Shown here piece by piece: positions 17,079-31,503 of a DNA stretch of 64,000 nucleotides. The notes below the pieces were generated by a model that worked only from the letters and a program-made list of their open reading frames with translations, made no database searches and had not been told where the DNA came from. A program made the position numbers and the translations under genes. The DNA is from Ruminococcus sp. (GTDB taxonomy: Bacteria > Bacillota > Clostridia > Oscillospirales > Acutalibacteraceae), in NCBI GenBank assembly GCA_017410265.1, contig JAFQRC010000001.1, positions 240,118 through 304,117 of the forward strand, written 5' to 3'. Numbering within the stretch: the first letter of the stretch is position 1; each line of letters starts with the position of its first letter.

Positions 17079-17107
17079 TTTATTATTTCTAAATAGTGTG
17101 GTATAAT
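17079..17107 (+). promoter_or_regulatory. Extended minus-ten promoter of the pullulanase gene
   Basis: TGGTATAAT (extended minus ten; hexamer 17102-17107) with a weak TTTATT 17 bp upstream. It is about 50 bp before the start codon. Confidence 0.6.
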
Positions 17108-17156
17108 GTCTACAACTGAAATTATGCGGTTAATTTTTAGAAAGAGAGGAATTTTA

Positions 17157-20100
17157 ATGAAATTACGCAGACTTATTTCATGTCTTCTTGTTCTTTGCTT
17201 GATGGTTACATCAGTCAGCTTCGCAGTTTCTGCTGCTGTTGTTGACGCTGCTCAGACAGGATACTACAACCAGAGTCACCTTGAGGATTACGCTCAGGCG
17301 GCTAAAAACACTGAGGGACTCGGTGCTACTTACTCAAAGAATTCTACTACCTTTAAGGTTTGGTCACCAACAGCTACTGCTGTTATGGTTAAGCTTTATT
17401 CAACAGGTACAGATGCTGAGTCAGGTGCTGCAGTGCTCGGTACACACGCAATGACAAAGAACGCTACTACAGGTGTCTGGACATTGACACTCAGCGGTGA
17501 TTACAAGGATGTTTACTACACATACCTGCTCACTATCGACGGTAGCACAGCTGAAACACAGGACCCATATGCTACTGCTGTCGGTGCTAACGGTGAGCGT
17601 TCAATGGTAGTTGACCTCGATTCTACTGACCCTGAGGGTTGGGAAGATGATAAGCATGTTGTTTTCGATTCTGCTGCACAGGCATCAGTATGGGAAGTTC
17701 ATGTTCGTGATTTCTCTATCTCAGAGTCATCAGGTGTTTCTGATGAATATAAAGGTAAGTACCTTGCTTTCACAGAAGGTAACACAACAGTTAACGGTGA
17801 GGGCGATATCGCTACTTGCGTTGACTATCTCGTAGAGCAGGGTATCAACTGTATCCAGCTCCTCCCAATCGCTGACTTCTCGGGTATTGACGAGACTAAC
17901 TCAGATCCACAGCGTAACTGGGGTTACAACCCTGTTAACTTCAATGTTCCTGACGGTGCATACGCTACTGACTGCTACGACGGTAACGCTAGAATCAAAG
18001 AGTTCAAGCAGCTCGTTCAGGCTTGCCACGACAGAGGCATCGCAGTTGTAATGGACGTTGTTTACAACCACACATATGTACTCGAGGGCTCAGCTCTCGC
18101 TAAGACTGTTCCTCAGTACTACCACAGAATGTCAAGTGCTCAGGACTACTACAACGGTTCTGGTCTTGGTAACTGCTTGTCAACAGAGAAAGCTATGACA
18201 TCTAAGTATGTTGTTGAATCTCTCAAATACTGGGTAGAAGAGTACCACATTGACGGTTTCCGTTTCGACCTTATGGGCGCACTCGACTGCGATACATTAA
18301 ACGCAGCAAGAGCAGAGCTTGATAAGATTGACAAGGGTATCCTCATGTGGGGTGAACCATGGGCAGGCGGCGACGCTGGTATCGCAAACGGTGCTACAAA
18401 CTCTAACTTCTCTAAGCTCAACGACCGTATCGGTGGTTTCAACCAGACATATGCTGAGAACTTAAAGGGTTCTGAATCTCTCATCACAGGTACATCAGGT
18501 GCGTTTGCACAGGGCGACACAACAAACGCTGCTATCTTAGATGCTGCTAAAGCTAACTTCACATACTTCAGAACAACAGCTACTTCAAAAGCGCTTAACT
18601 ATCTTGATAACCATGATAACCTCACACTTTACGATAAGCTCCTCAAAACTAACCAGGATGACCTTAAGTCAAAGTATGGTTATACTTTCACAACAAATAA
18701 AGACCTTGAGAACCTCTACAACCTCAACCAGACTGTAGCTAATACATACTACAAAGAGGTTGCTGATCAGCTCAAGTTATCATTAGTTTCTGTTATGACA
18801 GCTCAGGGTATTCCGTTCATGAATGCAGGTACTGAGTTTGCTCGTACAAAGTACGGTGACGGTAACTCTTATCGTACATCTGATAACATCAATGCTATCG
18901 ACTGGACCCGTCTCGAAAAATGGGGCGGTGAAGCTGACTATTATGCAGGACTCCAGCAGATTCGTCAGGCATTCACCCCGTTCACAGACGCTAAGGCTGA
19001 TACTATCACAACTATTTCTGCTAAGGATCCTGTTGCTTACTCAGTAAACAACACAACAGCAGGCGAGTGGAGCAAGATTCTTGTTATCATGAATAACAGC
19101 AAGACAGACTCAAAGACAGTTACACTTCCTGCAGGTACATGGACTGTTGTAGCTAACGCTGACAAAGCAGGTCTTGAATCACTAGGCACAGCTTCTGGCT
19201 CTTACACAGCTCCTGCTCATTCAGGTGCTATCCTTGTTCAGGGTACATATAACAAGCCAGCATCGGGCTATACAACACTCATAGCTGAGCACTATGTGCG
19301 CGATTCAGCTTCAGGCTCTTACAAGCTCGAGAAGTCAAACACAGCTAAGTACAAGGTTGGTCAGACATATCGTGCTATTACAGACACAAATATCCTCTTT
19401 GACCACAAACTCGACAAGTATGACAGCTCAACAGGTAAGCTTTCAGGTGAAGCTGTTGCTAACCAGAATATAACAGTTAAGTTCTACTACACAAGATACA
19501 TTGATTCTAACTACCTGACAGTTAACTTCCTCGACTCTAAATCAGGCGAGAAGGTTCGTCCTTACATCAAGTACAGACTCCGTGATGGCGATGAGTTCTC
19601 TATCCCTGCTACAGGTGTTCAGGGTTACTCACTCGATACTACTAAGTATCCTGCAGGCACTGTAGGCACATTCGATGCTTCTGCTCCACTTGTGTTTAAC
19701 TACTACTACAACGCTCTTACACATACTAAGACTGTAGTTCACTACTACAACTCTCATCCGAACTGGAACAACACAATTATCCAGTGTTACGCTTACTATG
19801 ACACATCAACTGAAGAACCACTCGGCAAGTGGACAGACAACAAAGCAGGTAACATGGCTAAAGACACAGCACTTGGCGATAACTGGTACACAGTTACTAT
19901 TCCTAATGTTCAGTCCTGTAGAGTAATGTTCCACCCATCGGGCGCAGTAAGTGGTGTTCAGCAGGAGCCTGGCCAGGGTGAAGCAGGTTACGAAGTTTCT
20001 GAGGAAGCTTGGATCAAGGATAAGATCCTCACATTCTCATGTAAGGTTGTAACAAGCTACATCGACCTCGCTACAGGTAAGCAGCTCGCTCCTGATCAGA

Positions 20101-21062
20101 TTAAGTCATACGAGAAGATTACATCTAACGGTATGTACAGCACATCAGCTAAGCCAGAGCTCGGCGGTTACATTACACCTGCTAACGCTTCTAACTTCTT
20201 CAAAGCTGGTACAACAAATGTTGTTTACCTCTATGACGGTTCAGATCCTGACACACCTGGTGATGCTATCACAATCGGTGACGTTGACCTCGACGGCACA
20301 GTAGCTGTAATGGACGCTACATTTACTCAGAGATATGTCGCTCAGCTTCAGACTTTGGCTGCTAACTCACTCAAGGCTGCTGATGCTAACAAAGACGGTG
20401 ATATTAACATTACAGACGCTACATACATCCAGAGATTCGTAGCTCAGCTCTCAGGTACTGCAAACGTAGGCGAGAAGCTCGGTGGCGGACAGACTCCTAC
20501 AGGCGAGCATACATTCTCAGAGCTCATCGATATGTACAACACACTTTCTGGTAAGTATGTTGCACTTCCATCTGATTACTATAAGGATGACGAAGGCTAC
20601 AAGGCTGCCGGTGTTGCTCTTGATACATACAAGGCTGTAACTCTCAATCCTCAGGCTGAGCCTGAGCTCATCGACGAAGCTTACGAAGCATTTGAGTCAG
20701 CTTACGAAGTAATCAAGGACTACGAAGAGACTATCGAGATTCCGGTTCCTGATTCAATTGACATCTACTTTACAAACAACATCGGTTGGAGTAAAGTCAA
20801 CTACTACTGCTGGGGTGCTACTAACATGACATGGCCTGGCGCTCAGATGACATGGGACAGCAAGAACGATATGGGTCAGGATGTTTACAAAGTAACTATC
20901 GATCCATCAGTTTACCAGAACATCATCTTCAACAGTGGTGCAAGTGGCGACGCTAACCAGACTGTAGATATCGTTATTGATACAACAAGTACAAAGATTG
21001 GTTATTACATCGCTAATCCTGAAACATCAGGTAAGAAGAGCGTTGGTACTTGGAATCCATAA
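17157..21062 (+). CDS. Secreted type I pullulanase with internal dockerin and starch-binding-like modules
   Basis: Cleaves alpha-1,6 branches of starch outside the cell; expected amylosome component. 1301 residues. Signal peptide (MKLRRLISCLLVLCLMVT), CBM48-like domain (about 45-150), GH13 barrel with the pullulanase motif NWGYNPVNF, VMDVVYNHT, nucleophile GFRFDLMG (about 367), acid MWGEPWAGG (about 398) and YLDNHDN (about 481). Two MucBP-like repeats (about 690-860) follow, then a possible starch-binding module (HYYNSHPNWNN), a dockerin (about 1038-1098), and a C-terminal CBM26-like module (IDIYFTNNIGWSKVNYYCW). The dockerin is internal rather than terminal. ATG 17157 is chosen because AGAGAGGA lies upstream and the signal peptide starts there. 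Single gene between two terminators. Confidence 0.94.
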   Translation: MKLRRLISCLLVLCLMVTSVSFAVSAAVVDAAQTGYYNQSHLEDYAQAAKNTEGLGATYSKNSTTFKVWSPTATAVMVKLYSTGTDAESGAAVLGTHAMTKNATTGVWTLTLSGDYKDVYYTYLLTIDGSTAETQDPYATAVGANGERSMVVDLDSTDPEGWEDDKHVVFDSAAQASVWEVHVRDFSISESSGVSDEYKGKYLAFTEGNTTVNGEGDIATCVDYLVEQGINCIQLLPIADFSGIDETNSDPQRNWGYNPVNFNVPDGAYATDCYDGNARIKEFKQLVQACHDRGIAVVMDVVYNHTYVLEGSALAKTVPQYYHRMSSAQDYYNGSGLGNCLSTEKAMTSKYVVESLKYWVEEYHIDGFRFDLMGALDCDTLNAARAELDKIDKGILMWGEPWAGGDAGIANGATNSNFSKLNDRIGGFNQTYAENLKGSESLITGTSGAFAQGDTTNAAILDAAKANFTYFRTTATSKALNYLDNHDNLTLYDKLLKTNQDDLKSKYGYTFTTNKDLENLYNLNQTVANTYYKEVADQLKLSLVSVMTAQGIPFMNAGTEFARTKYGDGNSYRTSDNINAIDWTRLEKWGGEADYYAGLQQIRQAFTPFTDAKADTITTISAKDPVAYSVNNTTAGEWSKILVIMNNSKTDSKTVTLPAGTWTVVANADKAGLESLGTASGSYTAPAHSGAILVQGTYNKPASGYTTLIAEHYVRDSASGSYKLEKSNTAKYKVGQTYRAITDTNILFDHKLDKYDSSTGKLSGEAVANQNITVKFYYTRYIDSNYLTVNFLDSKSGEKVRPYIKYRLRDGDEFSIPATGVQGYSLDTTKYPAGTVGTFDASAPLVFNYYYNALTHTKTVVHYYNSHPNWNNTIIQCYAYYDTSTEEPLGKWTDNKAGNMAKDTALGDNWYTVTIPNVQSCRVMFHPSGAVSGVQQEPGQGEAGYEVSEEAWIKDKILTFSCKVVTSYIDLATGKQLAPDQIKSYEKITSNGMYSTSAKPELGGYITPANASNFFKAGTTNVVYLYDGSDPDTPGDAITIGDVDLDGTVAVMDATFTQRYVAQLQTLAANSLKAADANKDGDINITDATYIQRFVAQLSGTANVGEKLGGGQTPTGEHTFSELIDMYNTLSGKYVALPSDYYKDDEGYKAAGVALDTYKAVTLNPQAEPELIDEAYEAFESAYEVIKDYEETIEIPVPDSIDIYFTNNIGWSKVNYYCWGATNMTWPGAQMTWDSKNDMGQDVYKVTIDPSVYQNIIFNSGASGDANQTVDIVIDTTSTKIGYYIANPETSGKKSVGTWNP

Positions 21063-21198: not shown

Positions 21199-21396
21199 TT
21201 GGATACTATTGAAAAACTGATGTATCAGTACGGACTCTCTAGATTTCCGTCTGATACAGCTTACGCTATGGCGTATGTACCGTTCCAGCAGAATTCACCG
21301 AAGATGTACAGCCCTATGCATGGCTACGAGTGCGGCACGATTTTCGAAGATTTGAATAAGCCGTTCTGTCCCAAAGATTGTGAGGGACTCAGATGA
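21199..21396 (+). CDS. cotJA: Spore coat associated protein CotJA
   Basis: 65 residues. The pattern AMAYVPFQ...MYSPMHGYECGTIFEDLNKPF matches the CotJA family (AYVP-Q and GTIF-LxxPF motifs). In Bacillus the cotJ operon is transcribed in the mother cell under sigma-E and CotJA helps anchor CotJC to the coat. A TTG start is used, placed 9 nt after AAGGAG; the nearby ATG at 21192 is out of frame and stops at once. cotJB overlaps its stop. Confidence 0.9.
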   Translation: MDTIEKLMYQYGLSRFPSDTAYAMAYVPFQQNSPKMYSPMHGYECGTIFEDLNKPFCPKDCEGLR

Positions 21397-21650
21397 CTCA
21401 GCGTGAAATAATGCTCAAAAAAATCGGCACATACAAGTTTTATTTAAAAGACCTTCAGCTTTACCTTGACACCCACCCACGTGATGAAATGGCACTCTCT
21501 AAGTACGAGGAGTACAAAGCGATATTAAAACCACTCGTAAAAGAATTCGAGAGCAGATTTGGTCCGCTGACAGCCAGAAGCGGAGAGTTTGCAAACAAGT
21601 TTTTGTGGATAAATAACCCATGGCCGTGGGATTTGGAGGAGGATGACTGA
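21393..21650 (+). CDS. cotJB: Spore coat protein CotJB
   Basis: 85 residues. The DLQLYLDTHPRDEMAL core and the PWPWDLE C-terminal motif are diagnostic for CotJB, a small coat protein of the CotJ complex. Start ATG overlaps the cotJA stop and the stop overlaps the cotJC start, giving tight translational coupling. Confidence 0.93.
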   Translation: MTQREIMLKKIGTYKFYLKDLQLYLDTHPRDEMALSKYEEYKAILKPLVKEFESRFGPLTARSGEFANKFLWINNPWPWDLEEDD

Positions 21651-21847
21651 TGTTTGTATACGAAAAACAACTGCAATACCCAGTAAAGATTAAACGCCCT
21701 AACCCTCAGCTTGCAAAGGTTATCATCAGCCAGTTCGGCGGTCCTGATGGGGAGCTCGCGGCTTCTATGCGTTACCTGTCCCAGCGTTACAGTATGCCTG
21801 TCAAAGAGCTTAAGGCAACACTGACTGATATAGGTACTGAGGAATAA
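21650..21847 (+). pseudogene. cotJC: cotJC 5' fragment, interrupted by the element at 21834
   Basis: N-terminal third of the spore-coat manganese catalase CotJC. MFVYEKQLQYPVKIKRPNPQ and GPDGELAASMRYLSQRY are typical of the family, but the frame ends after 65 codons at TAA 21845-21847 instead of about 190-200. The last genuinely host codons are GAT ATA GG(T) at 21827-21834; ACT GAG GAA TAA comes from the inserted element. The rest of the protein is encoded at 31074-31503. Joining 21650-21834 to 31074-31503 gives 615 nt in frame, 204 residues, with D-I-G-V-E-E-L-N-H at the joint. I mark it as an interrupted, potentially restorable gene rather than a dead one. Confidence 0.93.
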
Positions 21848-21858
21848 AATTGATTATC
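21821..21858 (+). other. Left junction (attL): cotJC half plus element arm
   Basis: Host half CTGACTGATATAGG, then the element half TACT and the arm GAGGAATAAAATTGATTATC (21839-21858). The central GG is at 21833-21834. Confidence 0.82.
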
Positions 21859-21936
21859 TTATGCATTGATGTACGGCTGTATTCAAAGTGTTTTTACATT
21901 ACATATTTTTCGCAGAATACCATAGAGCATAAAAAA

Positions 21937-21966
21937 CACCCCTGAAAGCAGTTGCCTTCAGGGGTG
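21937..21966 (-). terminator. Terminator of the element's minus-strand cargo operon
   Basis: CACCCCTGAA / TTCAGGGGTG stem; on the minus strand it is followed by TTTTTT. It lies 40 bp past the stop at 22007. Confidence 0.87.
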
Positions 21967-22006
21967 AGTGCTATTTACTTATACTAAGCGTTTCTTATCA
22001 GATGAA

Positions 22007-24754
22007 TCAGAATTCTGTGATAATGTTTGCGACATATCTCTGTACGATAGTAGCATCCACAACATTCACGATACCGTTGAAGTCTACATCAGCAAGCTTG
22101 AGCTGTTCGTCTGATAAATCGCTGAGCTTAGCAACATGACGCTGAATTTCTGTAGCGTCGAATACAGATACTTCGCCGTCAAGTGTAACATCTCCGATTA
22201 TAGCAGTCTTTGCCATCTCGATATCGAGAGCGTTAATAAGCTGGTCTTTGATGTATGTGTGACCTGCCTGATTCGGATACAGACCATGCTTAGCCATAAC
22301 AGCACCTGCAAACTCAACGATATCCATAGGCTCGCCGTTGTTTACATTTTCAACATCCTCAGCTTCTACGAAAATTACATTTTCTGTGAGTGCGCTGTAT
22401 GCTCTGTCATGGATTGTAGTTGCTTTGACAACCTCATCGAGTATATCGCCGATAGCGAGTGTTTTTCCGTTGAACTCAAGGCTTCTGCCCTCAAACGGAT
22501 TGTATGTACCAACAACGAGCACCTTAGCGTCAGGGTTGATAGCAAGGATAGAGTTGACAAACTCAGGCATTGCCATAGCGTAAGCAAGAGCGTTGTAAGC
22601 ATAGTTTTCGATTACATCAAGAATGAAATTAGTTGTGTCAACTTCGAATGTAAAGATTCCGCCGATGGAATATTCGAAAGTACCGCTGATGCCTGATGCG
22701 ATAATTTCTTCACGAACCACCTGAAGGATATTCTCAACATAAACTACGCCTTCTTCTGTAACCAGAGTGCTCCAGTCGTAAGAAGGAGCCTGACCTGCAA
22801 CACCTGCTAGTGCTGCTTCGAGTGCTTTTTCCATAAGTGTCACATTACTGAAGCCCACAGTGATGAGGTCAGCTTTTGCGATGTCAGCTGCGTTTTGTGC
22901 AACGATAGCACCTGCGTCCTGAATCAGAAGACCGCTCTGTGCGAGATTCTTGTAATCAAGGTAGTTTTCTTTAGCAAACTGCTTAACATAATCGTTGTAA
23001 TCAGTTGATACAGCGGAGCCGTCACCGATAGCAACATAATATGAATCGTCAGTTACTTTGTAGTGGTTTGAATCCTGTGGACCGTATTTTTCAAGAGCTG
23101 TGAGAACCTTCTCGATAGCAATATTAATCTTCTCGTAAGAAGCCTCAGAAGCCATATAGCCGTTTTCGTATGAATCAACAATAGCCGCTGTCAGAGAATC
23201 GTGACCTGCAGCACTTGGGTGACAGCCGATACCGTTACCAACAAGCATTCTTGCAAAGAGATTGAGCAGACCAAAGATTGTTTCGTCTTCTGTGAGTACA
23301 TAACTCATACCGTCCGGTAGAGCTATTGTTTTATATACATCCTCTACAGCGACATCCATAGAGTGACGGAGCTTGAGGTAAGCAACAACAGTGCCAGCTA
23401 GGATTAAGTTGTCTGTGTCGTTTGGAGCATTTTCTGTGATGTGTGCCTCTACCTTTTCCTGTACACCGTTGAAAATTCCGCCGATACCGTCTGCAAGTTT
23501 GATTAAAGCATTTGCGTCGAGAACCTCGAGCTTTGTAGACTCTATGATAGCCTGCTCAAATGCAAGATATACTGTGATAGACATCAGCTTTGACTGGTTA
23601 GCGACAAAATACTCACCGTATGCTGATGTACCGCCTGCGACAGCTGTTTCATATGCTTCTACATCAGCGCGTGTGATGTCAACATATGTGCCCGGAGCCG
23701 AAGCGTTTAGCATAGGCCATACCATTTTCTGAACCTCTTCGATAACACGATCACGCAAAACTGAATCAGGATTATTAATCTGGTCAGCATATGTGTTTAC
23801 TACAACATCAACATCAGGAGATTCAGCGTAGTAGAATTTAGCCTCAGGGAATTTGTCGAGAAGCTGGAGAACAACCGGCTGGGTTGAAAGGTAGATGTTG
23901 ACAGCCTCAACAGCTTCGCCAACGATTTCACCGAGAGGAATAATGTTGCCTTCGTATGAAATGTCCATACCGGTGAATGTGTTCATAAGACCGATGATGA
24001 TAATCTCAGCATCTTCGTTGAGTTCAACGATACGCTCAACACAGCCTGCGTAGTTCATCATGAAGCTGACAACAGTATATGTAACAGCATTCTCGATAGG
24101 GTCGATGATTTCTTCTGAACCTTCAGGAACATATGAATAAAGCTTTTCTCTTAAATCAGCACGAATCTGACGGAGATACGCTTTTGTCGGCTCGTCGCAC
24201 TCCTGAATTGCATCTTCAAAATCAATCCATGCATCAGCAGAAGGGTCACCACCTAAAACGCCGAAAGCGTTGGTGATGCGTCCGAGTAAGAATACGCCGA
24301 AGTTTGCATTACCGATACCGAGTGTGATTACATCAGCTTCAGCTGTTGCACTCTGGTATACCTGAGCAGCGTTTTCAACGCCACCACAATCGTTTTTGAA
24401 ACGACCGTTAACAAACTCAGACTGAGTGTACTCATCTCCAGGATAAGCACCTTCTTTGCCATACTCGAGGATGTAGTGCAGGTCTTCTGCACGCATAGCG
24501 CTCATAGCGAGCTGGTGTGTAAGGTCCCAACCGAAGTGCTCAGCAAGCTTGTAAGGATAAGCATCAGGGGATTCTTCCAGATAGCCGTTTACATCGCCGT
24601 AGCCTGTAAGACCGTAGCCGTTAGCCATAGAGTCACCGAATGAGATGTACTTAACCTTTTTTTCGGTTTCTGCCGCAAAAACTGCAGGGCACATACCGAC
24701 TAAAAGACAAAGCACTATCACAATGGCGATGCTCTGTTTGAATAGTTTTTTCAT
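22007..24754 (-). CDS. Exported tandem SGNH-hydrolase-like protein with dockerin
   Basis: 915 residues. Signal peptide (IVIVLCLLVGMCPAVFAAE, cleaved near 28). The first SGNH/GDSL-like domain has block I SFGDSMANGYG (about 42-52), a GNAN block III and CHPSAAGH as block V. A second, more diverged copy from about residue 577 has AIGDGSAVS, VGFSN and LYPNQAGH. A C-terminal dockerin (about 851-915) has two calcium loops. SGNH enzymes are esterases or lipases, for example of acetylated glycans; the substrate here is unknown. It lies 87 bp downstream of an acyl-CoA ligase on the same strand, a pairing that could link ester release to activation. Inside the cotJC element. Confidence 0.87.
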   Translation of the reverse strand: MKKLFKQSIAIVIVLCLLVGMCPAVFAAETEKKVKYISFGDSMANGYGLTGYGDVNGYLEESPDAYPYKLAEHFGWDLTHQLAMSAMRAEDLHYILEYGKEGAYPGDEYTQSEFVNGRFKNDCGGVENAAQVYQSATAEADVITLGIGNANFGVFLLGRITNAFGVLGGDPSADAWIDFEDAIQECDEPTKAYLRQIRADLREKLYSYVPEGSEEIIDPIENAVTYTVVSFMMNYAGCVERIVELNEDAEIIIIGLMNTFTGMDISYEGNIIPLGEIVGEAVEAVNIYLSTQPVVLQLLDKFPEAKFYYAESPDVDVVVNTYADQINNPDSVLRDRVIEEVQKMVWPMLNASAPGTYVDITRADVEAYETAVAGGTSAYGEYFVANQSKLMSITVYLAFEQAIIESTKLEVLDANALIKLADGIGGIFNGVQEKVEAHITENAPNDTDNLILAGTVVAYLKLRHSMDVAVEDVYKTIALPDGMSYVLTEDETIFGLLNLFARMLVGNGIGCHPSAAGHDSLTAAIVDSYENGYMASEASYEKINIAIEKVLTALEKYGPQDSNHYKVTDDSYYVAIGDGSAVSTDYNDYVKQFAKENYLDYKNLAQSGLLIQDAGAIVAQNAADIAKADLITVGFSNVTLMEKALEAALAGVAGQAPSYDWSTLVTEEGVVYVENILQVVREEIIASGISGTFEYSIGGIFTFEVDTTNFILDVIENYAYNALAYAMAMPEFVNSILAINPDAKVLVVGTYNPFEGRSLEFNGKTLAIGDILDEVVKATTIHDRAYSALTENVIFVEAEDVENVNNGEPMDIVEFAGAVMAKHGLYPNQAGHTYIKDQLINALDIEMAKTAIIGDVTLDGEVSVFDATEIQRHVAKLSDLSDEQLKLADVDFNGIVNVVDATIVQRYVANIITEF

Positions 24755-24773
24755 AGTTTTACCTCCTAGTAGA

Positions 24774-24805
24774 ATTACCGCACTAGCTTTCTAAAGTGCG
24801 GTAAT
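24774..24805 (-). other. Intercistronic hairpin ATTACCGCACT / AGTGCGGTAAT
   Basis: An 11-bp stem with a 10-nt loop between ligase and SGNH genes. No U-run follows on the minus strand. It shares the ACCGCACT/AGTGCGGT core with 12698-12742. Confidence 0.5.
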
Positions 24806-24841
24806 CAGTTTTATACTCAACCGTAAATACGGGTTAAAGCC

Positions 24842-26578
24842 TTATTTATCTGCTTTTGGATTCCATGAGGTGTAGTCAAAGTCAGAGTAGATTGCTTCCA
24901 GCGCTTTAGCGTCGTTTTTGCCCATACCTGTCAGCGGGATTTCGTCCATAGAAAGTACGGCAACAGGCTTACCACGCTCTTCAAGCTGTTCATCACAGTA
25001 TGCAAAAATCTCTGCACAAGCAGTTTCTTTGTCAACGCCGGGAACAAGCTCTACTATCGCAAGTGGATACTGGCCTTGAGAATGCTCTTTGTCGTTAACA
25101 CCGATTACCGAGCAGTTTTTGACTTCTTTTCTTCCGCTGATGAGACCCTCCATATTGATAGGGAAGACCTTGTGACCGTCAAAACGGGTTATCATACGCT
25201 TTATGCGACCTTTGATAAACAAAAATCCGTCGTCGTCCATATAACCGATATCGCCCGAGTGTATCCACATCTGACCATCATCATGCTTGCGCATAATGAT
25301 ATCTGTTTCCTCTTTGGCATTGAAATAGCCTTTCATCATCGACGGACCTGTCACACAAACCTCGCCAATTTCGTTGTATCCGAGCTCTTCACCTGTTTCA
25401 GGGTCGAAGATGCTGACGGTTGTCGTCAGTGAAGGAATACCAACACTGCCACGCTTGTACACAGTGTTAACACAGAAAGAAGCAGCAGCAGAAAGCTCTG
25501 TCATTCCGTAACCCTGTGCGAGCGGGAACTTCATATTATGTTCTTTCATAAACTCGTTAAGCTTCTTTTCCAGACCTTCGTTCATTGTGTCTCCGCCTGA
25601 AGCCAGAGTGTAAAGGAACGAAAGGTCCATATTCTTAACCTCTTTGCTGTTAATAAGCAACTCAATAAACACAGGAGTGCTGATAATAACCTGAGGTTTA
25701 AATTGTTTAACAAGCTTACCGATTGTGTTTGGAACAAACTTTGGTATCGGAACAAGGGTATGTCTCATACAAAGCGGCATATGCATACCGCAAACCATTC
25801 CATAAGCAGAGAATATCGGAATGATACCAAGATATCTGTCGTTATCGTTCATATACGCATCACAATACATAAAGTTGATAACAACTGCGTTCATAGAATC
25901 GTTTGTGAGCATTGTGCCTTTTGGAATACCTGTAGTACCGCCTGTGTATGTAATAGCAACGGTAGCATCGCCTTCATATGGTACTTCCTCAGCTTTGACA
26001 CCCTCACCTTTACTAAGGAAGGTGCTCCACTTCATCAGATTATCGCTATATTCAATATTTGTCTTTACAGCAAGCTTCATAGCGATTTTCTTGAAAAACG
26101 GCAGTGAATTTGCGGCAGACTGAACAATGATTATGTCAGGGTTGATTTCGTTTTTGATTTTTTCAACCTTAGGGAAAGCGACATCAATTGTGACAAGAAT
26201 GTTAGAATCTGATGCATTTATCATCTTCTTGATAGTGTTGATATCCATTCTCGGGTCAATAGTGTTAGCTGCGGCACCGATTTTGTTGAGAGCATAAACA
26301 GCGGCTATTGTTTCAGGAACGGCAACAGACAAAAATGATACGATATCACCTTTCTTTACACCCATAGCAACAAAAGCACTGGCACATTCTTCGATGCGTT
26401 GCCAAAGCTCGCGGTGGGTAATGTCAGAGCCGTAATAGTGAAGTGCAGGCTTGTCCAGACGATCTTTGTTGCGTTCTCTCAGATACTGATATGCGGTACA
26501 CTGGGGGAATTTTTCGCTCAAAGCTTCCTTTGAATAATATTTCAACCAGACCTTATTATCAGAAATTTTCATTTTCAT
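24842..26578 (-). CDS. AMP-binding acyl-CoA synthetase-like ligase
   Basis: 578-residue member of the ANL superfamily, forming acyl-adenylate and then probably acyl-CoA. Adenylation motifs seen: TYTGGTTGIPKGTML (about 211), QGYGMTELSA, and the hinge region GDIGYMDDDGFLFIKGRIKRM. Length is normal for fatty-acid or medium-chain acyl-CoA ligases. It has no signal peptide, so it is cytoplasmic. Substrate not predictable. AAGGAGG lies 4 nt before ATG 26578 and a second ATG follows two codons later. First gene of the minus-strand cargo operon in the cotJC element; such metabolic cargo is unusual for skin-type elements. Confidence 0.9.
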   Translation of the reverse strand: MKMKISDNKVWLKYYSKEALSEKFPQCTAYQYLRERNKDRLDKPALHYYGSDITHRELWQRIEECASAFVAMGVKKGDIVSFLSVAVPETIAAVYALNKIGAAANTIDPRMDINTIKKMINASDSNILVTIDVAFPKVEKIKNEINPDIIIVQSAANSLPFFKKIAMKLAVKTNIEYSDNLMKWSTFLSKGEGVKAEEVPYEGDATVAITYTGGTTGIPKGTMLTNDSMNAVVINFMYCDAYMNDNDRYLGIIPIFSAYGMVCGMHMPLCMRHTLVPIPKFVPNTIGKLVKQFKPQVIISTPVFIELLINSKEVKNMDLSFLYTLASGGDTMNEGLEKKLNEFMKEHNMKFPLAQGYGMTELSAAASFCVNTVYKRGSVGIPSLTTTVSIFDPETGEELGYNEIGEVCVTGPSMMKGYFNAKEETDIIMRKHDDGQMWIHSGDIGYMDDDGFLFIKGRIKRMITRFDGHKVFPINMEGLISGRKEVKNCSVIGVNDKEHSQGQYPLAIVELVPGVDKETACAEIFAYCDEQLEERGKPVAVLSMDEIPLTGMGKNDAKALEAIYSDFDYTSWNPKADK

Positions 26579-26914
26579 TTTCCCTCCTTTAAAATTAAAG
26601 CGGAAGATATGTTTAATTTATTACTCTATACTACATTATAATGTAATATATATCAAAACAATATATTGTATTATACAACAAAACAAATACTATATCAACA
26701 TTTTTTTGAGTTTCTCCTCTGAAGTTGCCTTTGTAGTGGTAAAATTTGCAAAAAACACGGCTTGCTTCGGTTGAATTTTTGCCTAATTATAAATAAATTG
26801 TGCAAGATGCACAAAAAGTGTTTTTTAAGTTTGTTATAATTTGGTTTGATTTTGTGAGAATTTAGTGTTAATATATAGATGCCAGAAATTGATATTTTTC
26901 AAGGAGGAAATAAT
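26579..26914. other. Divergent promoter region inside the element
   Basis: No gene. A very AT-rich spacer between the ligase (left) and the dockerin gene (right). It contains the palindrome TGTGCA-AGA-TGCACA at 26799-26813 and a TATAAT-containing stretch around 26830-26840 for the rightward gene. The minus-thirty-five regions are weak, which would suit an activated promoter. Confidence 0.5.
26799..26813. promoter_or_regulatory. Palindrome TGTGCA-AGA-TGCACA
   Basis: Perfect 6-3-6 inverted repeat just upstream of the rightward promoter, in the divergent region between two cargo transcripts. Candidate operator; the regulator is unknown. Confidence 0.4.
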
Positions 26915-28963
26915 ATGAAAAGATTTTTAGCGATTGTTCTCGCTCTTGTAATGGTTCTTTCTGTTACTGTTGGTGTTTCAGCACAGAATGCTCCTATTAC
27001 ATATGAATGTGAGAATGGTTACACAGCGACTAAGATTTCTATGCCTGAGGCAGGCGAAGGCGAAGTTGACGGTCTTATTGGCGACAGATCACAGAACTAC
27101 GCTTGGTCTTCTGTAGGTTATGGTGACTATGTTTATGTAGGCACCAGCTTTGGCGTTGTTTACACAGCATTAAAGGTTATCGCAAATGAAAAGGGTCTGG
27201 ATTTTGCTAATCTCAAGCTCTATGTTGATGCTTTATTCAACGGCAAGCTCTACACAGGCGACGAGGGAGAAGTTGACACTCCTCCAAGAAGCGTTATTGC
27301 TAAGATCAACACAAAAACATACGAAACAGAAGTTGTAGAAACTTACGATGGTGTGGTTGGTTTCCGTGCTGCTACAAAGCTCAATGATAAGCTTTATTTT
27401 GCTGCAGCAACAGCTAACCAGCCTTACATTCTCGAGATTGATCCTGAAAACGCTGACGCAGCAAACATCGTATGCTACAGCGAGACTACAACAGATCCTT
27501 CTGTTTCAACAGGTATCCGTGGTCTTACAACATACAAGGATATGTTGGTTGCTACACTTATCGGTGATGACGGTGCTTACATGGTAGCTTCAAGCGACCC
27601 AAGCGCTGGTCAGGATTCTTTCGAAGTTATTTGCACACAGGAAGATCTCTTTGACTACCCTGCTTACCACTATATGGACAGCATTTTCGGCGGTAGCATC
27701 TGGGATCTCGTTGAGTACAACGGCAAACTCTACATCTCTGTAGTTACAGGTAAAAACGGTAGCAAGCAGCCATTCGCTCTCTTCAGCGGTGAAGTTGATG
27801 AAAATGGTGAATGGACATATGACCTCATCGTTGGTAATGAGGCTGATGGCGCTGAATATCCATTCGGTTTAGGTTCAGACCGTTCAGGCGCTGCTAACCT
27901 TGCAGTACATGACGGCTATCTCTACATCGGTGGTTTCAACGATCCAATGATCGCTCTTCCATCTATCTTAAAGGGCAGCTTTGAGGATCTTTACAAAGAC
28001 CTCAGCTCTCCAGTTTGCTTATGGAGACTTGATGCTGACAACAACATCGAGATGGTAGCAGGCGAAGCTAATGAAGTATTCCCTGAAGGTCCTATCGGTA
28101 ACATGGGCGCAGGTTTTGGTAGCAACATGAACCAGTATGTATGGCGTATGGCAAGCTACGATGGAAAGCTCTTCTTAGGTACATTTGATGTTACAGGTCT
28201 TGTTCGTCCTATCGCACAGTTCACAAACGGCGATATCTTCGAGATGACAAAAGAAGAGTGGATGTCACAGCTTGACTATATCAGACAGGTTCTCGAGTCT
28301 TTAGGCGTTCCTGCAAGTGATAAGGATATCGCTGCTACAGGCGCAAGCGTTGAGCTCGCAGCTATCGAGGATAACCTTGATACTCTCGAAGACCTCAGCG
28401 TATACTTTGAGGATTCTGATGTTACTTTAGAGTACAGACAGAAGTTCTATGATCTTCTCCTCGAACTCAAGGATCAGTACATCAAGGTTAGAGATTATCT
28501 CTCAGCTGAAGCTAAGGAAAGAATCGACGCATTCTTTGCTAATGAAAAGGTTCAGAACTTCGGTTACTTCGTAGGTTGCTTATGCTACATGAGCAAGTCT
28601 GAAGAAGGTTATGACCTCTTTGTAAGCCATGATGGTATCAACTTCGATACATTGACACGTGACGGTATGGGCGATCGTTACAACTACGGTTCTCGCGTAT
28701 TCGCTATCACAGATAACGGTCTTTGCATCGGTACAGCTAACCCATTCTACGGCGCACAGGTATGGCTCCTCGAAGACACTATCATCGGTGACGTTAACTT
28801 TGACGGCAAAGTAAATGTATTTGACGCAACTTACATCCAGAGACATATCGCTAAGCTCGAAACTCTCAGCGATGCAGCTCTCGAAGTTGCTGATTTCGAT
28901 GGCAACGGTATCGTAAATATCTTTGATGCTACTGCTATCCAGATGTATATTTCTAAGCTCTGA
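26915..28963 (+). CDS. Exported beta-propeller-like protein with dockerin
   Basis: 682 residues. Signal peptide (MKRFLAIVLALVMVLSVTVGVSA). The main part (about 40-470) has recurring blade-like segments such as YVYVGTSFG, KLYFAAAT, KLYISVVTG, GYLYIGGFN and KLFLGTFD, so a beta-propeller is likely, possibly sugar binding. A helical insertion (about 450-540) follows, and a further strand region LCYMSKSEEGYDLFVSHDG. The dockerin is at about 623-682 with loops DVNFDGKVNVFDATYIQR and DFDGNGIVNIFDATAIQ. ATG 26915 follows AAGGAGGAAATAAT. No catalytic motif recognised. Inside the cotJC element, expressed divergently from the ligase operon. Confidence 0.86.
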   Translation: MKRFLAIVLALVMVLSVTVGVSAQNAPITYECENGYTATKISMPEAGEGEVDGLIGDRSQNYAWSSVGYGDYVYVGTSFGVVYTALKVIANEKGLDFANLKLYVDALFNGKLYTGDEGEVDTPPRSVIAKINTKTYETEVVETYDGVVGFRAATKLNDKLYFAAATANQPYILEIDPENADAANIVCYSETTTDPSVSTGIRGLTTYKDMLVATLIGDDGAYMVASSDPSAGQDSFEVICTQEDLFDYPAYHYMDSIFGGSIWDLVEYNGKLYISVVTGKNGSKQPFALFSGEVDENGEWTYDLIVGNEADGAEYPFGLGSDRSGAANLAVHDGYLYIGGFNDPMIALPSILKGSFEDLYKDLSSPVCLWRLDADNNIEMVAGEANEVFPEGPIGNMGAGFGSNMNQYVWRMASYDGKLFLGTFDVTGLVRPIAQFTNGDIFEMTKEEWMSQLDYIRQVLESLGVPASDKDIAATGASVELAAIEDNLDTLEDLSVYFEDSDVTLEYRQKFYDLLLELKDQYIKVRDYLSAEAKERIDAFFANEKVQNFGYFVGCLCYMSKSEEGYDLFVSHDGINFDTLTRDGMGDRYNYGSRVFAITDNGLCIGTANPFYGAQVWLLEDTIIGDVNFDGKVNVFDATYIQRHIAKLETLSDAALEVADFDGNGIVNIFDATAIQMYISKL

Positions 28964-29024
28964 TCCGTATAAGGAAAGCTGAAATATAAGTCATTTAGTA
29001 TACAAAATCTATTTAATAAATGAG

Positions 29025-29056
29025 AATAACGGATATCCGCTTGGGTATCCGTTATT
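29025..29056. terminator. Terminator between convergent cargo and recombinase genes
   Basis: AATAACGGATA / TATCCGTTATT, 11-bp stem, followed by TTTATTG. Mainly serves the dockerin gene; it also lies past the recombinase stop. Confidence 0.8.
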
Positions 29057-29096
29057 TTTATTGTCAGAAAACTTTTAGAATACTTTTTCTGACTTC

Positions 29097-30833
29097 TTAT
29101 TCATTTTTCGGTGCGGATTTAAGGAGAGAGATAACCTCTTCTTTTTTTAGAACATCAAACTCGGCTGTGTAGTTATCTGCCCTGCCTTTTGTCTTGTACT
29201 GCAGATATATAGGAGCGCTCATAAACGAAAAGTGAAATTCCAGAATATTCAGTGGATGAACAACTATTTTTTTAATTATCCTCTCATAAAAGTTAAGGTT
29301 AAGGGTTTCGTTATCTAACGAGATTATCTCATCTGTTTTTGATTTCACTATTTTAAGAAAGGTGCTTTCACCAGCTTTGTTTTGTGGTTTACTAAGCTCT
29401 TTGATTTGATTTTGCAAAGCATTTTTCTCTTTTTCTTTATCACTTTTGAGTTCAATATATATGTCTAAAGGTATTAGCTCTTTAATCATTTTGTCAGTTA
29501 GTGTTCTGAGCTCTTTATTTATGTCGCTTAGTCTTCTTTCGATGTCTGCTATTGTTGTGTCATTACTCTCAGGTAAAAATTCATTTTCTGCTTTTTTGAG
29601 AATAGCGGTGAGAATTTCTTCTTTCATCGGGTTAATAACCTCTGATATTATGTCGTAAAGGATGGTTTTCAGTACCTTGTCGTTCACCCTGAGAGCGTTG
29701 CAACCTACATAGACTTTCTCGCCAGAGAGGGTTTCTGCCTGTTTGTACCTACCGTTTCTGTTTTTTTCTGCACATATCCAGGCTTTGTAGGGAAGATTAG
29801 GGTGTGCTTTTTTTATGCTGACATATCTCTTGTTGCATAAGCCGCAGGTGATTTTTCCGCTTAACCAGTATTTTCCCGAGTGCATTGTCCGAGGCTTTTT
29901 TTGAGCTTCTTTTTCTTTGAGTAGTTTTTGTACCCTGTTCCACAAATCGCGGTCTATTATAGCGCTTTCGGGATGATGGTCTGTGGTATGTACTCTGTAC
30001 GATTGACCGCGATTGTACTTTTTCTTATGGGTGAGTGCGTCGGGAGTGTAAGTCTTTCCCTGTTCAAGGTCACCCACATATTTTTCGTTTCTTAAAATAC
30101 GGAGAATAACAGTGCTTGACCAACCGTTTTTGTATTGCATTGGTCTGATATCTGCTTTTGTCAGTTTTTCTGCAATTGTGAAGGTTCCTTCGCCACTTGC
30201 GTACAGCTCGAATATTTGTCTTATAATTCTGGCTTCATCCTCAACTACTTCGAAATGTTGTTTTCCGCTTTTATCGTTTACGATGTTGTAGCCGTACATT
30301 CTTCTGCGGCCGAAAACTACTCCGTTTTCCATTTGTTGCTGCTGACCCCATTTTACACGACGGGAGGTTCTCAGGCTTTCCTGTTCAGCGTTGAGTGCTA
30401 TCTGAGTCAGTTTTTCGCGATAGTGGTCATCTTGTGTGTTTATATCATCAGCCAGAAACCAGATGTATACACCAATATTTCTCAGCTCTTCTACTATTTT
30501 CAGTAAATCAAGTACATTTCTTGAAAAACGGGACACCTCTTTTGTCAGGATAATTTCCACCTTTCCCCGATGAGCATAGCTCAGCATTTTTTTGAAATCT
30601 TCTCTTTTTTCAAGAGAAGTTCCACTTAACCCCTCGTCTGCAAAAATTCCGATATTAACCCAGTTGCTTTTTCTCTCGAAATATTTTTCAAAGAAGTTTT
30701 TCTGGGAAGCAAGCGAGTTTTTCTGGTCTTCTTCAACAGTTGAAACACGACAGTATGCACAGACATTATGAGGTTTGTTGTCCTGTGTTTTAAAAGTGAT
30801 ATTATCAGGATTGGTGGTCTTCGTTTTGTACAC
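29097..30833 (-). CDS. Large serine recombinase, probable excisionase of the cotJC element
   Basis: 578 residues. N-terminal resolvase domain with catalytic Ser31 in CAYCRVSTVEEDQ, the conserved EVSRFSRNVLDLL arginine helix and ADDINTQDD; the recombinase domain runs about 180-300 (FGRRRMYGYNI). Next come a zinc ribbon (CGLCNKRY ... CAEKN ... VGCNAL) and a C-terminal coiled coil (about 400-500). This is the layout of integrases such as SpoIVCA, SprA and phage serine integrases. The start is GTG 30833 with AAAGGAG 7 nt upstream. Its start is about 215 bp inside the right att site, as usual for such elements. Its target is inferred to be the att sites at 21833 and 31072. Confidence 0.93.
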   Translation of the reverse strand: MYKTKTTNPDNITFKTQDNKPHNVCAYCRVSTVEEDQKNSLASQKNFFEKYFERKSNWVNIGIFADEGLSGTSLEKREDFKKMLSYAHRGKVEIILTKEVSRFSRNVLDLLKIVEELRNIGVYIWFLADDINTQDDHYREKLTQIALNAEQESLRTSRRVKWGQQQQMENGVVFGRRRMYGYNIVNDKSGKQHFEVVEDEARIIRQIFELYASGEGTFTIAEKLTKADIRPMQYKNGWSSTVILRILRNEKYVGDLEQGKTYTPDALTHKKKYNRGQSYRVHTTDHHPESAIIDRDLWNRVQKLLKEKEAQKKPRTMHSGKYWLSGKITCGLCNKRYVSIKKAHPNLPYKAWICAEKNRNGRYKQAETLSGEKVYVGCNALRVNDKVLKTILYDIISEVINPMKEEILTAILKKAENEFLPESNDTTIADIERRLSDINKELRTLTDKMIKELIPLDIYIELKSDKEKEKNALQNQIKELSKPQNKAGESTFLKIVKSKTDEIISLDNETLNLNFYERIIKKIVVHPLNILEFHFSFMSAPIYLQYKTKGRADNYTAEFDVLKKEEVISLLKSAPKNE

Positions 30834-30954
30834 TGTCTGACTCCTTTTTTATGCTTTGCATATCAAGTGTATCTGTGATGAATTTTGTAAGCTGAAACAT
30901 CAGAGAAGCTCTTTCCTCTTTGCTTATGTGTAAATCATTCGGATTATTTATCAA
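30805..30954 (-). CDS. 49-residue ORF overlapping the recombinase start
   Basis: A TTG start at 30954 lies 9 nt after GGAGG and the frame ends at TGA 30807-30805, overlapping the recombinase by 29 nt. The product is hydrophilic (begins MINNPNDLHI, then SKEERASLMFQLTKF). Overlap and a clear ribosome site suggest translational coupling. A small partner such as a recombination directionality factor is possible by analogy with SprB, which is small and linked to SprA; there is no sequence evidence for that role. Confidence 0.55.
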   Translation of the reverse strand: MINNPNDLHISKEERASLMFQLTKFITDTLDMQSIKKESDSVQNEDHQS

Positions 30955-31000
30955 GTGCGTCTGCCTCCGTTAACAGGTGATATAAGATTATATGTTTCGG

Positions 31001-31014
31001 CTTAATATCGTATG
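31001..31014 (-). promoter_or_regulatory. Candidate sigma-E/sigma-K minus ten for the recombinase operon
   Basis: On the minus strand CATACGATATTA (from 31014) fits the sigma-E minus ten CATACnaT and the sigma-K CATAnnnTA. GTATAAA lies 10 bp upstream in place of a sigma-E minus thirty-five. A sigma-A alternative is TTGACT with CATACG 17 bp away. Mother-cell control is inference. Confidence 0.4.
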
Positions 31015-31047
31015 AAAGACATTTTTTATACAGTCAAAGTAACATCT

Positions 31048-31084
31048 GATAATCATTTTTATTCCTCTATAGGTGTAGAGGAGC
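31048..31084 (+). other. Right junction (attR): element arm plus cotJC half
   Basis: Element arm GATAATCATTTTTATTCCTC (31048-31067), then TATAGG with the central GG at 31072-31073, then the cotJC half TGTAGAGGAGC. The arm is the reverse complement of the left arm at 19 of 20 positions. Confidence 0.82.
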
Positions 31085-31503
31085 TCAACCATCTGGAAAT
31101 GGTCGGCACTATCGTTTATCAGCTTACTAGAAATCTCTCTGAAGAAGAGATTAAGAAGTCAGGCTTTGACGCTTACTTTGTAGACCACACAACAGGTATT
31201 TATCCGTCGTCTGCGGCAGGTGTTCCGTTTACAGCGGCATATCTGCAGTCAAAGGGCGACCCAATTACAGATTTGCACGAGGATATGGCGGCTGAGCAGA
31301 AGGCTCGTACCACCTACGATAACATCCTGCGTCTGTGCGATGACCCTGATGTCAAGGACCCTATCCGTTTCTTAAGAGCGCGAGAGGTTGTGCACTATCA
31401 GCGTTTCGGCGAAAATCTTAGAATACTAACCGACAAGCTCGATTCAAAGAACTACTACCAGTTCAACCCGAGCTTTGACAAAAAATGCTTCAAAAACAAG
31501 TGA
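31074..31503 (+). pseudogene. cotJC: cotJC 3' fragment, right of the element
   Basis: Encodes the C-terminal two thirds of CotJC: VEELNHLEMVGTIVYQL at the joint, then GVPFTAAYLQSKGD, DLHEDMAAEQKARTTYDNI and REVVHYQRFGENL. These include the EExxH and the second ExxH-like metal-ligand helices of manganese catalases (REVVHYQ). The in-frame ATG at 31012 lies in element sequence and has no ribosome-binding site, so the fragment is probably not translated alone. It lacks the first metal-ligand helix, which is in the 21650 fragment. Function depends on excision of the element. Confidence 0.92.

Follow-up and report, generated by a model that had tools for sequence, protein, structure and literature searches.

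By sequence comparison, the spore-coat gene cotJC is a recurrent landing gene of large serine recombinases (LSRs), whose elements enter it at the exact codons 31, 62, 65 and 136 in genomes of one order and of other orders of its class. In the window, by which we mean the whole analysed stretch of 64,000 nucleotides from a Ruminococcus sp. genome, cotJC is split by a 9,239-bp segment. We consider it likely that this segment is a gene-intervening element of the skin/gin type, which its own recombinase would remove by a crossover at the GG of codon 62, presumably in the mother cell during sporulation, thereby making the gene whole again. This reading is built on the split itself, the core common to both ends, the symmetry of the attP, the LSR encoded inside, a product that stays in frame, natural one-piece alleles whose residue at the joint is the predicted one, and selection in relatives.

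Two intact genes precede the split one, namely cotJA (21199..21396, plus strand, TTG start; PF11007, E 4.7e-16) and cotJB (21393..21650, plus strand; PF12652, E 1.4e-26). The 5' piece of cotJC comprises 65 codons (21650..21847, plus strand) and matches positions 1-66 of PF05067 (E 3.3e-22); its host codons extend to the crossover GG at 21833-21834 and are followed by four element-encoded codons and a stop. The 3' piece (31074..31503, plus strand) runs to the stop codon and matches positions 60-199 of the same family (E 1.6e-32). These Pfam matches agree with an earlier note on this DNA, which had described whole cotJA and cotJB genes and a cotJC cut after 65 codons, with the remainder starting at 31074. 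The intervening element (21835..31073) has a GC content of 41.5%, compared to 42-43% in its flanks. Its left end (21829..21858) is composed of the core TATAGGT (21829-21835) and the attP right arm GAGGAATAAAATTGATTATC (21839-21858), its right end (31048..31074) of the attP left arm GATAATCATTTTTATTCCTC (31048-31067) and a second copy of the core TATAGGT (31068-31074). The joint had been placed inside a shared ATAGGT, which is contained in this common core. Deletion of 21835-31073 in silico reproduces, to the base, the in-frame gene given in the earlier note: a stop-free cotJC of 615 nt with 204 codons and a product of 204 residues.

The crossover dinucleotide common to both ends is GG (21833-21834 and 31072-31073), located in cotJC codon 62. 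The predicted circular form carries the attP GATAATCATTTTTATTCCTC-TATAGGTACT-GAGGAATAAAATTGATTATC, and the attB predicted after excision is GATATAGGTGTAGAGGAG. The attP is an inverted repeat with 19 of 23 arm pairs and the core GG as its centre, while the next-best offset scores 9; its dyad of 22/26 was equalled in none of 300 shuffles. An alternative joint at a common GAGGA would remove the same 9,239 bp and place T for V at a single residue. The GG crossover product reads DIGVEEL, where the family consensus is DIGTEEL. P0001, a natural one-piece CotJC of 205 aa that is 99% identical to the joined protein and present in 8 contigs of up to 159,553 bp, carries DIGVEELNH. Thus, V is native to the lineage and the predicted product corresponds to a real allele. 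Since both the attP dyad centre and the V in P0001 point to it, the GG joint is favoured over the GAGGA joint, and the joint position as first given is backed. Given the shuffles, the LSR inside the element, and the same anatomy in many other genomes, the split goes beyond chance. No second, intact cotJC joint representing the excised junction is present in the window's own assembly, and a search of viral contigs with the attP pattern gave no match.

The element encodes an LSR of 578 aa (29097..30833, minus strand, GTG start; PF00239 E 1.2e-28, PF07508 E 1.4e-20, weak PF13408), which is predicted to catalyse both excision and integration. Its closest NCBIfam models are CcrB and XisF, with scores under the cut-off. 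A 49-aa ORF (30805..30954, minus strand, TTG start behind GGAGG) overlaps the LSR start and is a candidate directionality factor by position only. It has no Pfam match and is unrelated by HMM to the small ORFs of other elements at codon 62 (site B); small ORFs preceding the LSR are mutually related in 12 of 22 site-B elements, a group that does not include this ORF. Pfam and HMM comparison of small ORFs thus recognised no directionality factor in the element, and Pfam no phage structural families among its four large ORFs; the element is not classed here with the prophage-like ones.

The remaining three large ORFs form the cargo. The first encodes a secreted-type protein of 915 aa (22007..24754, minus strand) with a dockerin (PF00404, E 9e-10) and a weak GDSL-lipase-like match (PF13472, E 9.4e-7, under the Pfam cut-off), the second an AMP-forming acyl-CoA-ligase-like protein of 578 aa (24842..26578, minus strand; PF00501, E 1.9e-70), whose closest NCBIfam models are fatty-acid CoA ligases, every one under its cut-off, and the third a secreted-type protein of 694 aa with a C-terminal dockerin (26879..28963, plus strand; PF00404, E 1.1e-10). 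The same three-gene cluster was found in the genomes G040 (71, 84, and 74% identity) and G011 (65, 82, and 69%), where the stretches examined near the clusters contain no match to the window LSR; G040 possesses an intact cotJC elsewhere in its genome. The GDSL-dockerin protein is full-length in 3 of 59 relatives, the window counted, the other two being G040 and G011. Because the cluster occurs in G040 and G011 with no match to the window LSR in the stretches examined, and G040 has an intact cotJC, the cargo seems to be a chromosomal accessory cluster of the genus that was taken up by an LSR module. The dockerins suggest a cellulosome- or amylosome-like system. The gene immediately 5' of cotJA (window 17106-21062) codes for a pullulanase-like protein that has a dockerin besides CBM26 and CBM48 and probably belongs to a starch-degrading complex.

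No relative of the window LSR was found in IMG/VR, and in the sequence listing it occurs on one contig only, of 2,821 bp. A scan of genome contigs revealed two loci, one of which, L004 from a roe-deer MAG (55% identity), likewise lies beside cotJA and cotJB. The window's genome encodes a second LSR with 29% identity (L163 6182-8083; G000:C9:109182-111083), which is located in a mobile-looking island and adjoins a dockerin gene; no host gene split around it was recognised.

The earlier note had suggested looking for empty sites in the cotJ loci of related genomes. Three such sites were found, in G016, G040, and G014, which have a one-piece cotJC and the same gene order as the window (pullulanase, cotJA, cotJB, cotJC, DUF1846); CotJC of G016 and the joined protein of the window share 93% identity. 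Relatives are therefore not uniformly split, and their interrupted copies are undecayed, the opposite of one of the two outcomes that the earlier note had named as grounds for abandoning its reading. Split genes are known from the genus, order, and class samples, with genus and order counts taken from search tables by eye and orthology checked for the genus. Among 36 genomes of the genus, including the window's, 16 have a one-piece orthologue, 13 at least two complementary pieces, five no match, and one (G005) a single partial piece, with G023 outside the check. Within the order, a CotJC match was obtained in 234 of 295 genomes, and 70 of these, chosen for a partial or weak best match, were searched again. 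This gave at least two complementary pieces in 59 genomes and one partial piece in 10, while G320 is ambiguous among the matches listed. Hence, cotJC looks split in at least 59 of the 295 order genomes, where pieces on different contigs may reflect contig breaks only; in 26 of the 59, two or more pieces share a contig, and G203 and G277 are single-contig, near-complete genomes. In the class sample, 106 of 157 genomes have a CotJC match. Two complementary pieces occur in at least 14 genomes of other orders, and an LSR adjoins a cotJC piece in 12 of the 13 such genomes examined. No LSR was found in the stretches examined for G005, G018, G048, G058, and G462.

The reading frame is open across the joint in 38 of 39 tested junctions (the exception being G224-D), but joints were picked for best fit to intact proteins and open frames there are no independent test. 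The dyad was computed from both flanks at 31 offsets per junction, such that chance agreement amounts to one in 31. The dyad set of 43 junctions consists of the 39 tested ones without G224-D, G329-D, and G266-B, the latter two left out for bad alignment at the joint, plus seven from other orders; G480 was left out for lack of a clear joint. The attP is centred on residue 31 in all 13 junctions of site A, on residue 62 in 15 of 18 at site B (misses G009, G208, and G267), on residue 65 in all four at site B2, and on residue 136 in six of eight at site C (misses G015 and G070). Overall, 38 of 43 centres coincide with the fixed codon of their site and five miss it. At every site the centre lies between the first two codon bases, which are GG (31), GG (62), GA (65), and GA (136). 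There is probably a fifth landing place, site D, near residue 176, which has its own LSRs but whose joints did not resolve.

The recombinases are partitioned by site. A tree was built from 55 cotJC-junction LSR ORFs (those of the window and of L004, the other 53 from genomes of the genus and the order) together with 14 further LSRs. In it, the junction LSRs form one clade per site: A with 18 members, B with 22 including G035, C with nine, D with four, and B2 with two. Six site changes, the smallest number possible, are required on this tree, versus 40.1 in shuffles, none of 200 being as low. Once LSRs from other orders were added, a quick tree of 80 rows still showed C and D as clades, and A as well except for G387, whose LSR falls outside; B is no longer one clade, and the B2 clade is enlarged by G365, G376, and G467. 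The LSRs of G001 and G045 (L056, L074) are near-identical (dS 0.25) while the cotJC pieces of these genomes are saturated at synonymous sites, which suggests a recent transfer between species.

Several genes carry more than one element. Two are found within cotJC of G009 (A and B), G059 (A and B2), and G213 and G064 (both B and C). In G070, elements at B and C are accompanied by an LSR of the D type that follows the last piece, and one contig of G266 has pieces covering residues 1-35, to 65, 65-133, and 133-175 alongside LSRs that belong to clades A, B, B2, and C. It is an evenly balanced proposition that cotJC is, across the Clostridia, a gene with removable DNA introns, in which at least four recombinase lineages own one codon each (31, 62, 65, 136, and probably one near 176), many species harbour a single element and others two or three, and the mother cell rebuilds the gene for each spore by several independent excisions. 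The skin-like rebuilding proposed in the earlier note stands as far as a serine-recombinase element in cotJC and its exact restoration on paper are concerned; its scope of one element in one gut lineage was too narrow, given several LSR lineages with fixed codons in the order and in other orders of the class.

Two genomes have additional copies of the 3' third of cotJC. In G048 (L064), cotJC is complete and its part from codon 136 onwards is repeated 2.8 kb downstream; G018 (L084) has two such copies. The copies begin at the site-C core and follow the gene or one another, with no LSR located in between. Elements may thus bring their own 3' end, as SCC elements do.

The cotJ operon is expressed in the mother cell. 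In the proposed course of events, the element would stay in cotJC of vegetative cells and the forespore and be inherited. We infer that in the sporulating mother cell a directionality factor triggers the LSR to excise the element at the core GG of codon 62, which would join the cotJC halves to a complete spore-coat gene; loss of the element would be confined to the mother cell, a cell destined to die. In Clostridia, cotJC would have become a common landing site through several LSR lineages that each use a codon of their own. As to the host, Spo0A and SpoIVA are present (the latter in 38 of 39 genomes), as are two uninterrupted SigK/SigE-like factors with scores under the cut-off of the model. 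Judged on the DNA, the segment shares with skin and gin a mother-cell sporulation gene as target, a serine recombinase, a direct repeat with an inverted-repeat attP, a gene restored on paper, and selection in relatives.

This last point bears on a different explanation, which we consider unlikely: an ordinary integrative element inactivated a dispensable coat gene, and the pieces are remnants. Loss of cotJC might be tolerated, as the window's genome has an intact Mn-catalase paralogue (G000:C2:163388; such paralogues are about 36-38% identical to CotJC), and B. subtilis spores without CotJC are described as having no apparent defect in the accessible part of PMC12122855. Selection was measured on the copies of relatives. 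G047 and G049 have one site-A element in common over its full length (four blocks of 92.6-95.5% nucleotide identity), so that their cotJC was most likely split before the species parted. Their 3' piece of 179 codons shows 33 synonymous and one non-synonymous change (dN/dS 0.007), less than cotJA (0.016), cotJB (0.057), and the LSR (0.135). In the second pair, G127 and G059, the common element measures 3.2 kb (89.9% nucleotide identity), and non-synonymous versus synonymous changes are 1 vs 1 in the 5', 0 vs 5 in the middle, and 8.5 vs 50.5 in the 3' piece (dN/dS 0.028). Interrupted cotJC thus appears to be under strong selection in both pairs, a pattern that a dead gene would hardly show. Moreover, stop codons are absent from all 56 pieces of 26 split genes, and splits are frequent but their joints are in frame.

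Two observations lean the other way. At 74 columns that do not vary among 22 intact genes, the split ones differ in 2.4 positions on average versus 0.7 in intact genes (leave-one-out), which counts against a rebuilt gene but has little weight because most of the intact genes come from one genus, those in the split set are drawn more widely, and the joins dropped or doubled residues at several joints. Furthermore, the cotJC pieces of G143, a single contig of 2.69 Mb, lie 675 kb apart in the wrong order (L133/L134), and those of G223 lie 108 kb apart on opposite strands (L135/L136). Due to this order and orientation, simple excision would not mend either gene, and thus some copies may be lost or rearranged; the arrangement points to rearrangement between elements.

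Excision might also occur constitutively at a low rate, giving a mixed population of split and intact genes in which sporulation exerts no control. We regard this as quite improbable, even though yin in yabG was excised at every time point in the part of PMC10747680 available to us and near-identical intact CotJC alleles exist in 8 contigs. These alleles may stem from never-invaded strains, considering that the window LSR is listed from its single short contig only. Published excision of skin, SPbeta, and gin, as far as the accessible text of these reports goes, is under sporulation control (PMC5025042, PMC4191935, PMC5595907), and by analogy excision of the window element would likely take place during sporulation. 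A test of promoter boxes gave nothing sporulation-specific. Two CATANNAT boxes resembling the box before cotJA precede the window LSR (30987..31014, minus strand), and as many were obtained in 54 of 2,000 shuffles. All 21 loci have the box before cotJA, against an expected 1.9, and it precedes cotJC LSRs in 22 cases (7.0 expected); other LSRs (10 vs 3.3 expected) and the reversed motif (12 vs 4.1) are equally enriched. As the controls match the enrichment, it is not evidence of sporulation control, and the box was dropped as an indication of a mother-cell promoter.

That the halves of cotJC are made as separate proteins and then assemble is very improbable. The 3' piece of the window has an in-frame ATG at 31012, but nine of 29 downstream pieces lack an in-frame ATG, GTG, or TTG before the conserved part, which makes separate translation of these nine unlikely, and several LSR stop codons lie a few bases 5' of the 3' piece. 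An assembly artefact is hardly credible: most genomes are drafts of many contigs and pieces on different contigs may be contig breaks, but the window's pieces share a contig, as do those of 26 order genomes including the single-contig G203 and G277.

An excisable element in cotJC resembles several known systems. The closest parallel is gin, a 28.6-kb element with three recombinases in gerE of Bacillus cereus ATCC10987, for which excision by GirC and GirX was demonstrated (PMC5595907). According to the accessible part of that paper, both have no recognised phage genes, a serine recombinase, a short core in a small mother-cell sporulation gene, inverted-repeat att sites, and exact restoration, which for cotJC is on paper. 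Unlike gin, the cotJC element has one LSR, dockerin and CoA-ligase-like cargo, and another target, and its excision is predicted from sequence. Skin in sigK of Clostridioides difficile and B. subtilis is likewise an LSR-encoding element in a mother-cell gene that is rebuilt by excision, as predicted for cotJC; however, in the text available of PMC5025042 its target is a sigma factor, and it is prophage-like with the directionality factor CD1234, whereas in the cotJC element neither phage genes nor such a factor were recognised. SPbeta in spsM, vfbin in spoVFB, and vrin in spoVR (PMC4191935) as well as yin in yabG (PMC10747680) also split sporulation genes. These are other genes and prophages or prophage-like elements, and repeated use of several codons of one gene is not described in the accessible portions of these reports. 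Convergence of distantly related LSRs on one coding site is reported for a prolyl isomerase and a Mg-chelatase (PMC10083194, consulted in part), the main text of which does not contain the term cotJ. Diverse LSRs on one target gene are common to both situations, but in cotJC separate LSR clades use separate codons, and the gene could be repaired by excision.

No account of cotJC as an interrupted and rebuilt gene was found in the literature searched, subscription papers and supplements being outside it; the accessible text of PMC5025042 mentions cotJ once, its context left aside. New here are cotJC as the target and a cargo that is not of phage type, but most of all that separate recombinase lineages enter this one coat gene again and again, each at an exact codon of a conserved stretch. 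Excision-rebuilt genes have so far been single cases (sigK, spsM, spoVFB, spoVR, gerE, and yabG). If the reading of cotJC as a gene with removable introns is true, it would be a safe harbour for non-phage elements at no germ-line cost, and a testable general rule would be that mobile elements settle where programmed excision mends the damage. The junctions supply natural collections of LSRs, paired with their att sites, that target one gene, and element insertion would account for cotJC being annotated as broken in many gut genomes. The question arises whether one cell can assemble a gene from three or more pieces.

Beyond cotJC, an LSR element may have split a further sporulation gene, spoIVA. 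In L164 (1441-4500; G028:C4), this gene lacks its first approximately 19 residues and begins with GVVGPVRTGKST, and an LSR ORF ends 30 nt upstream.
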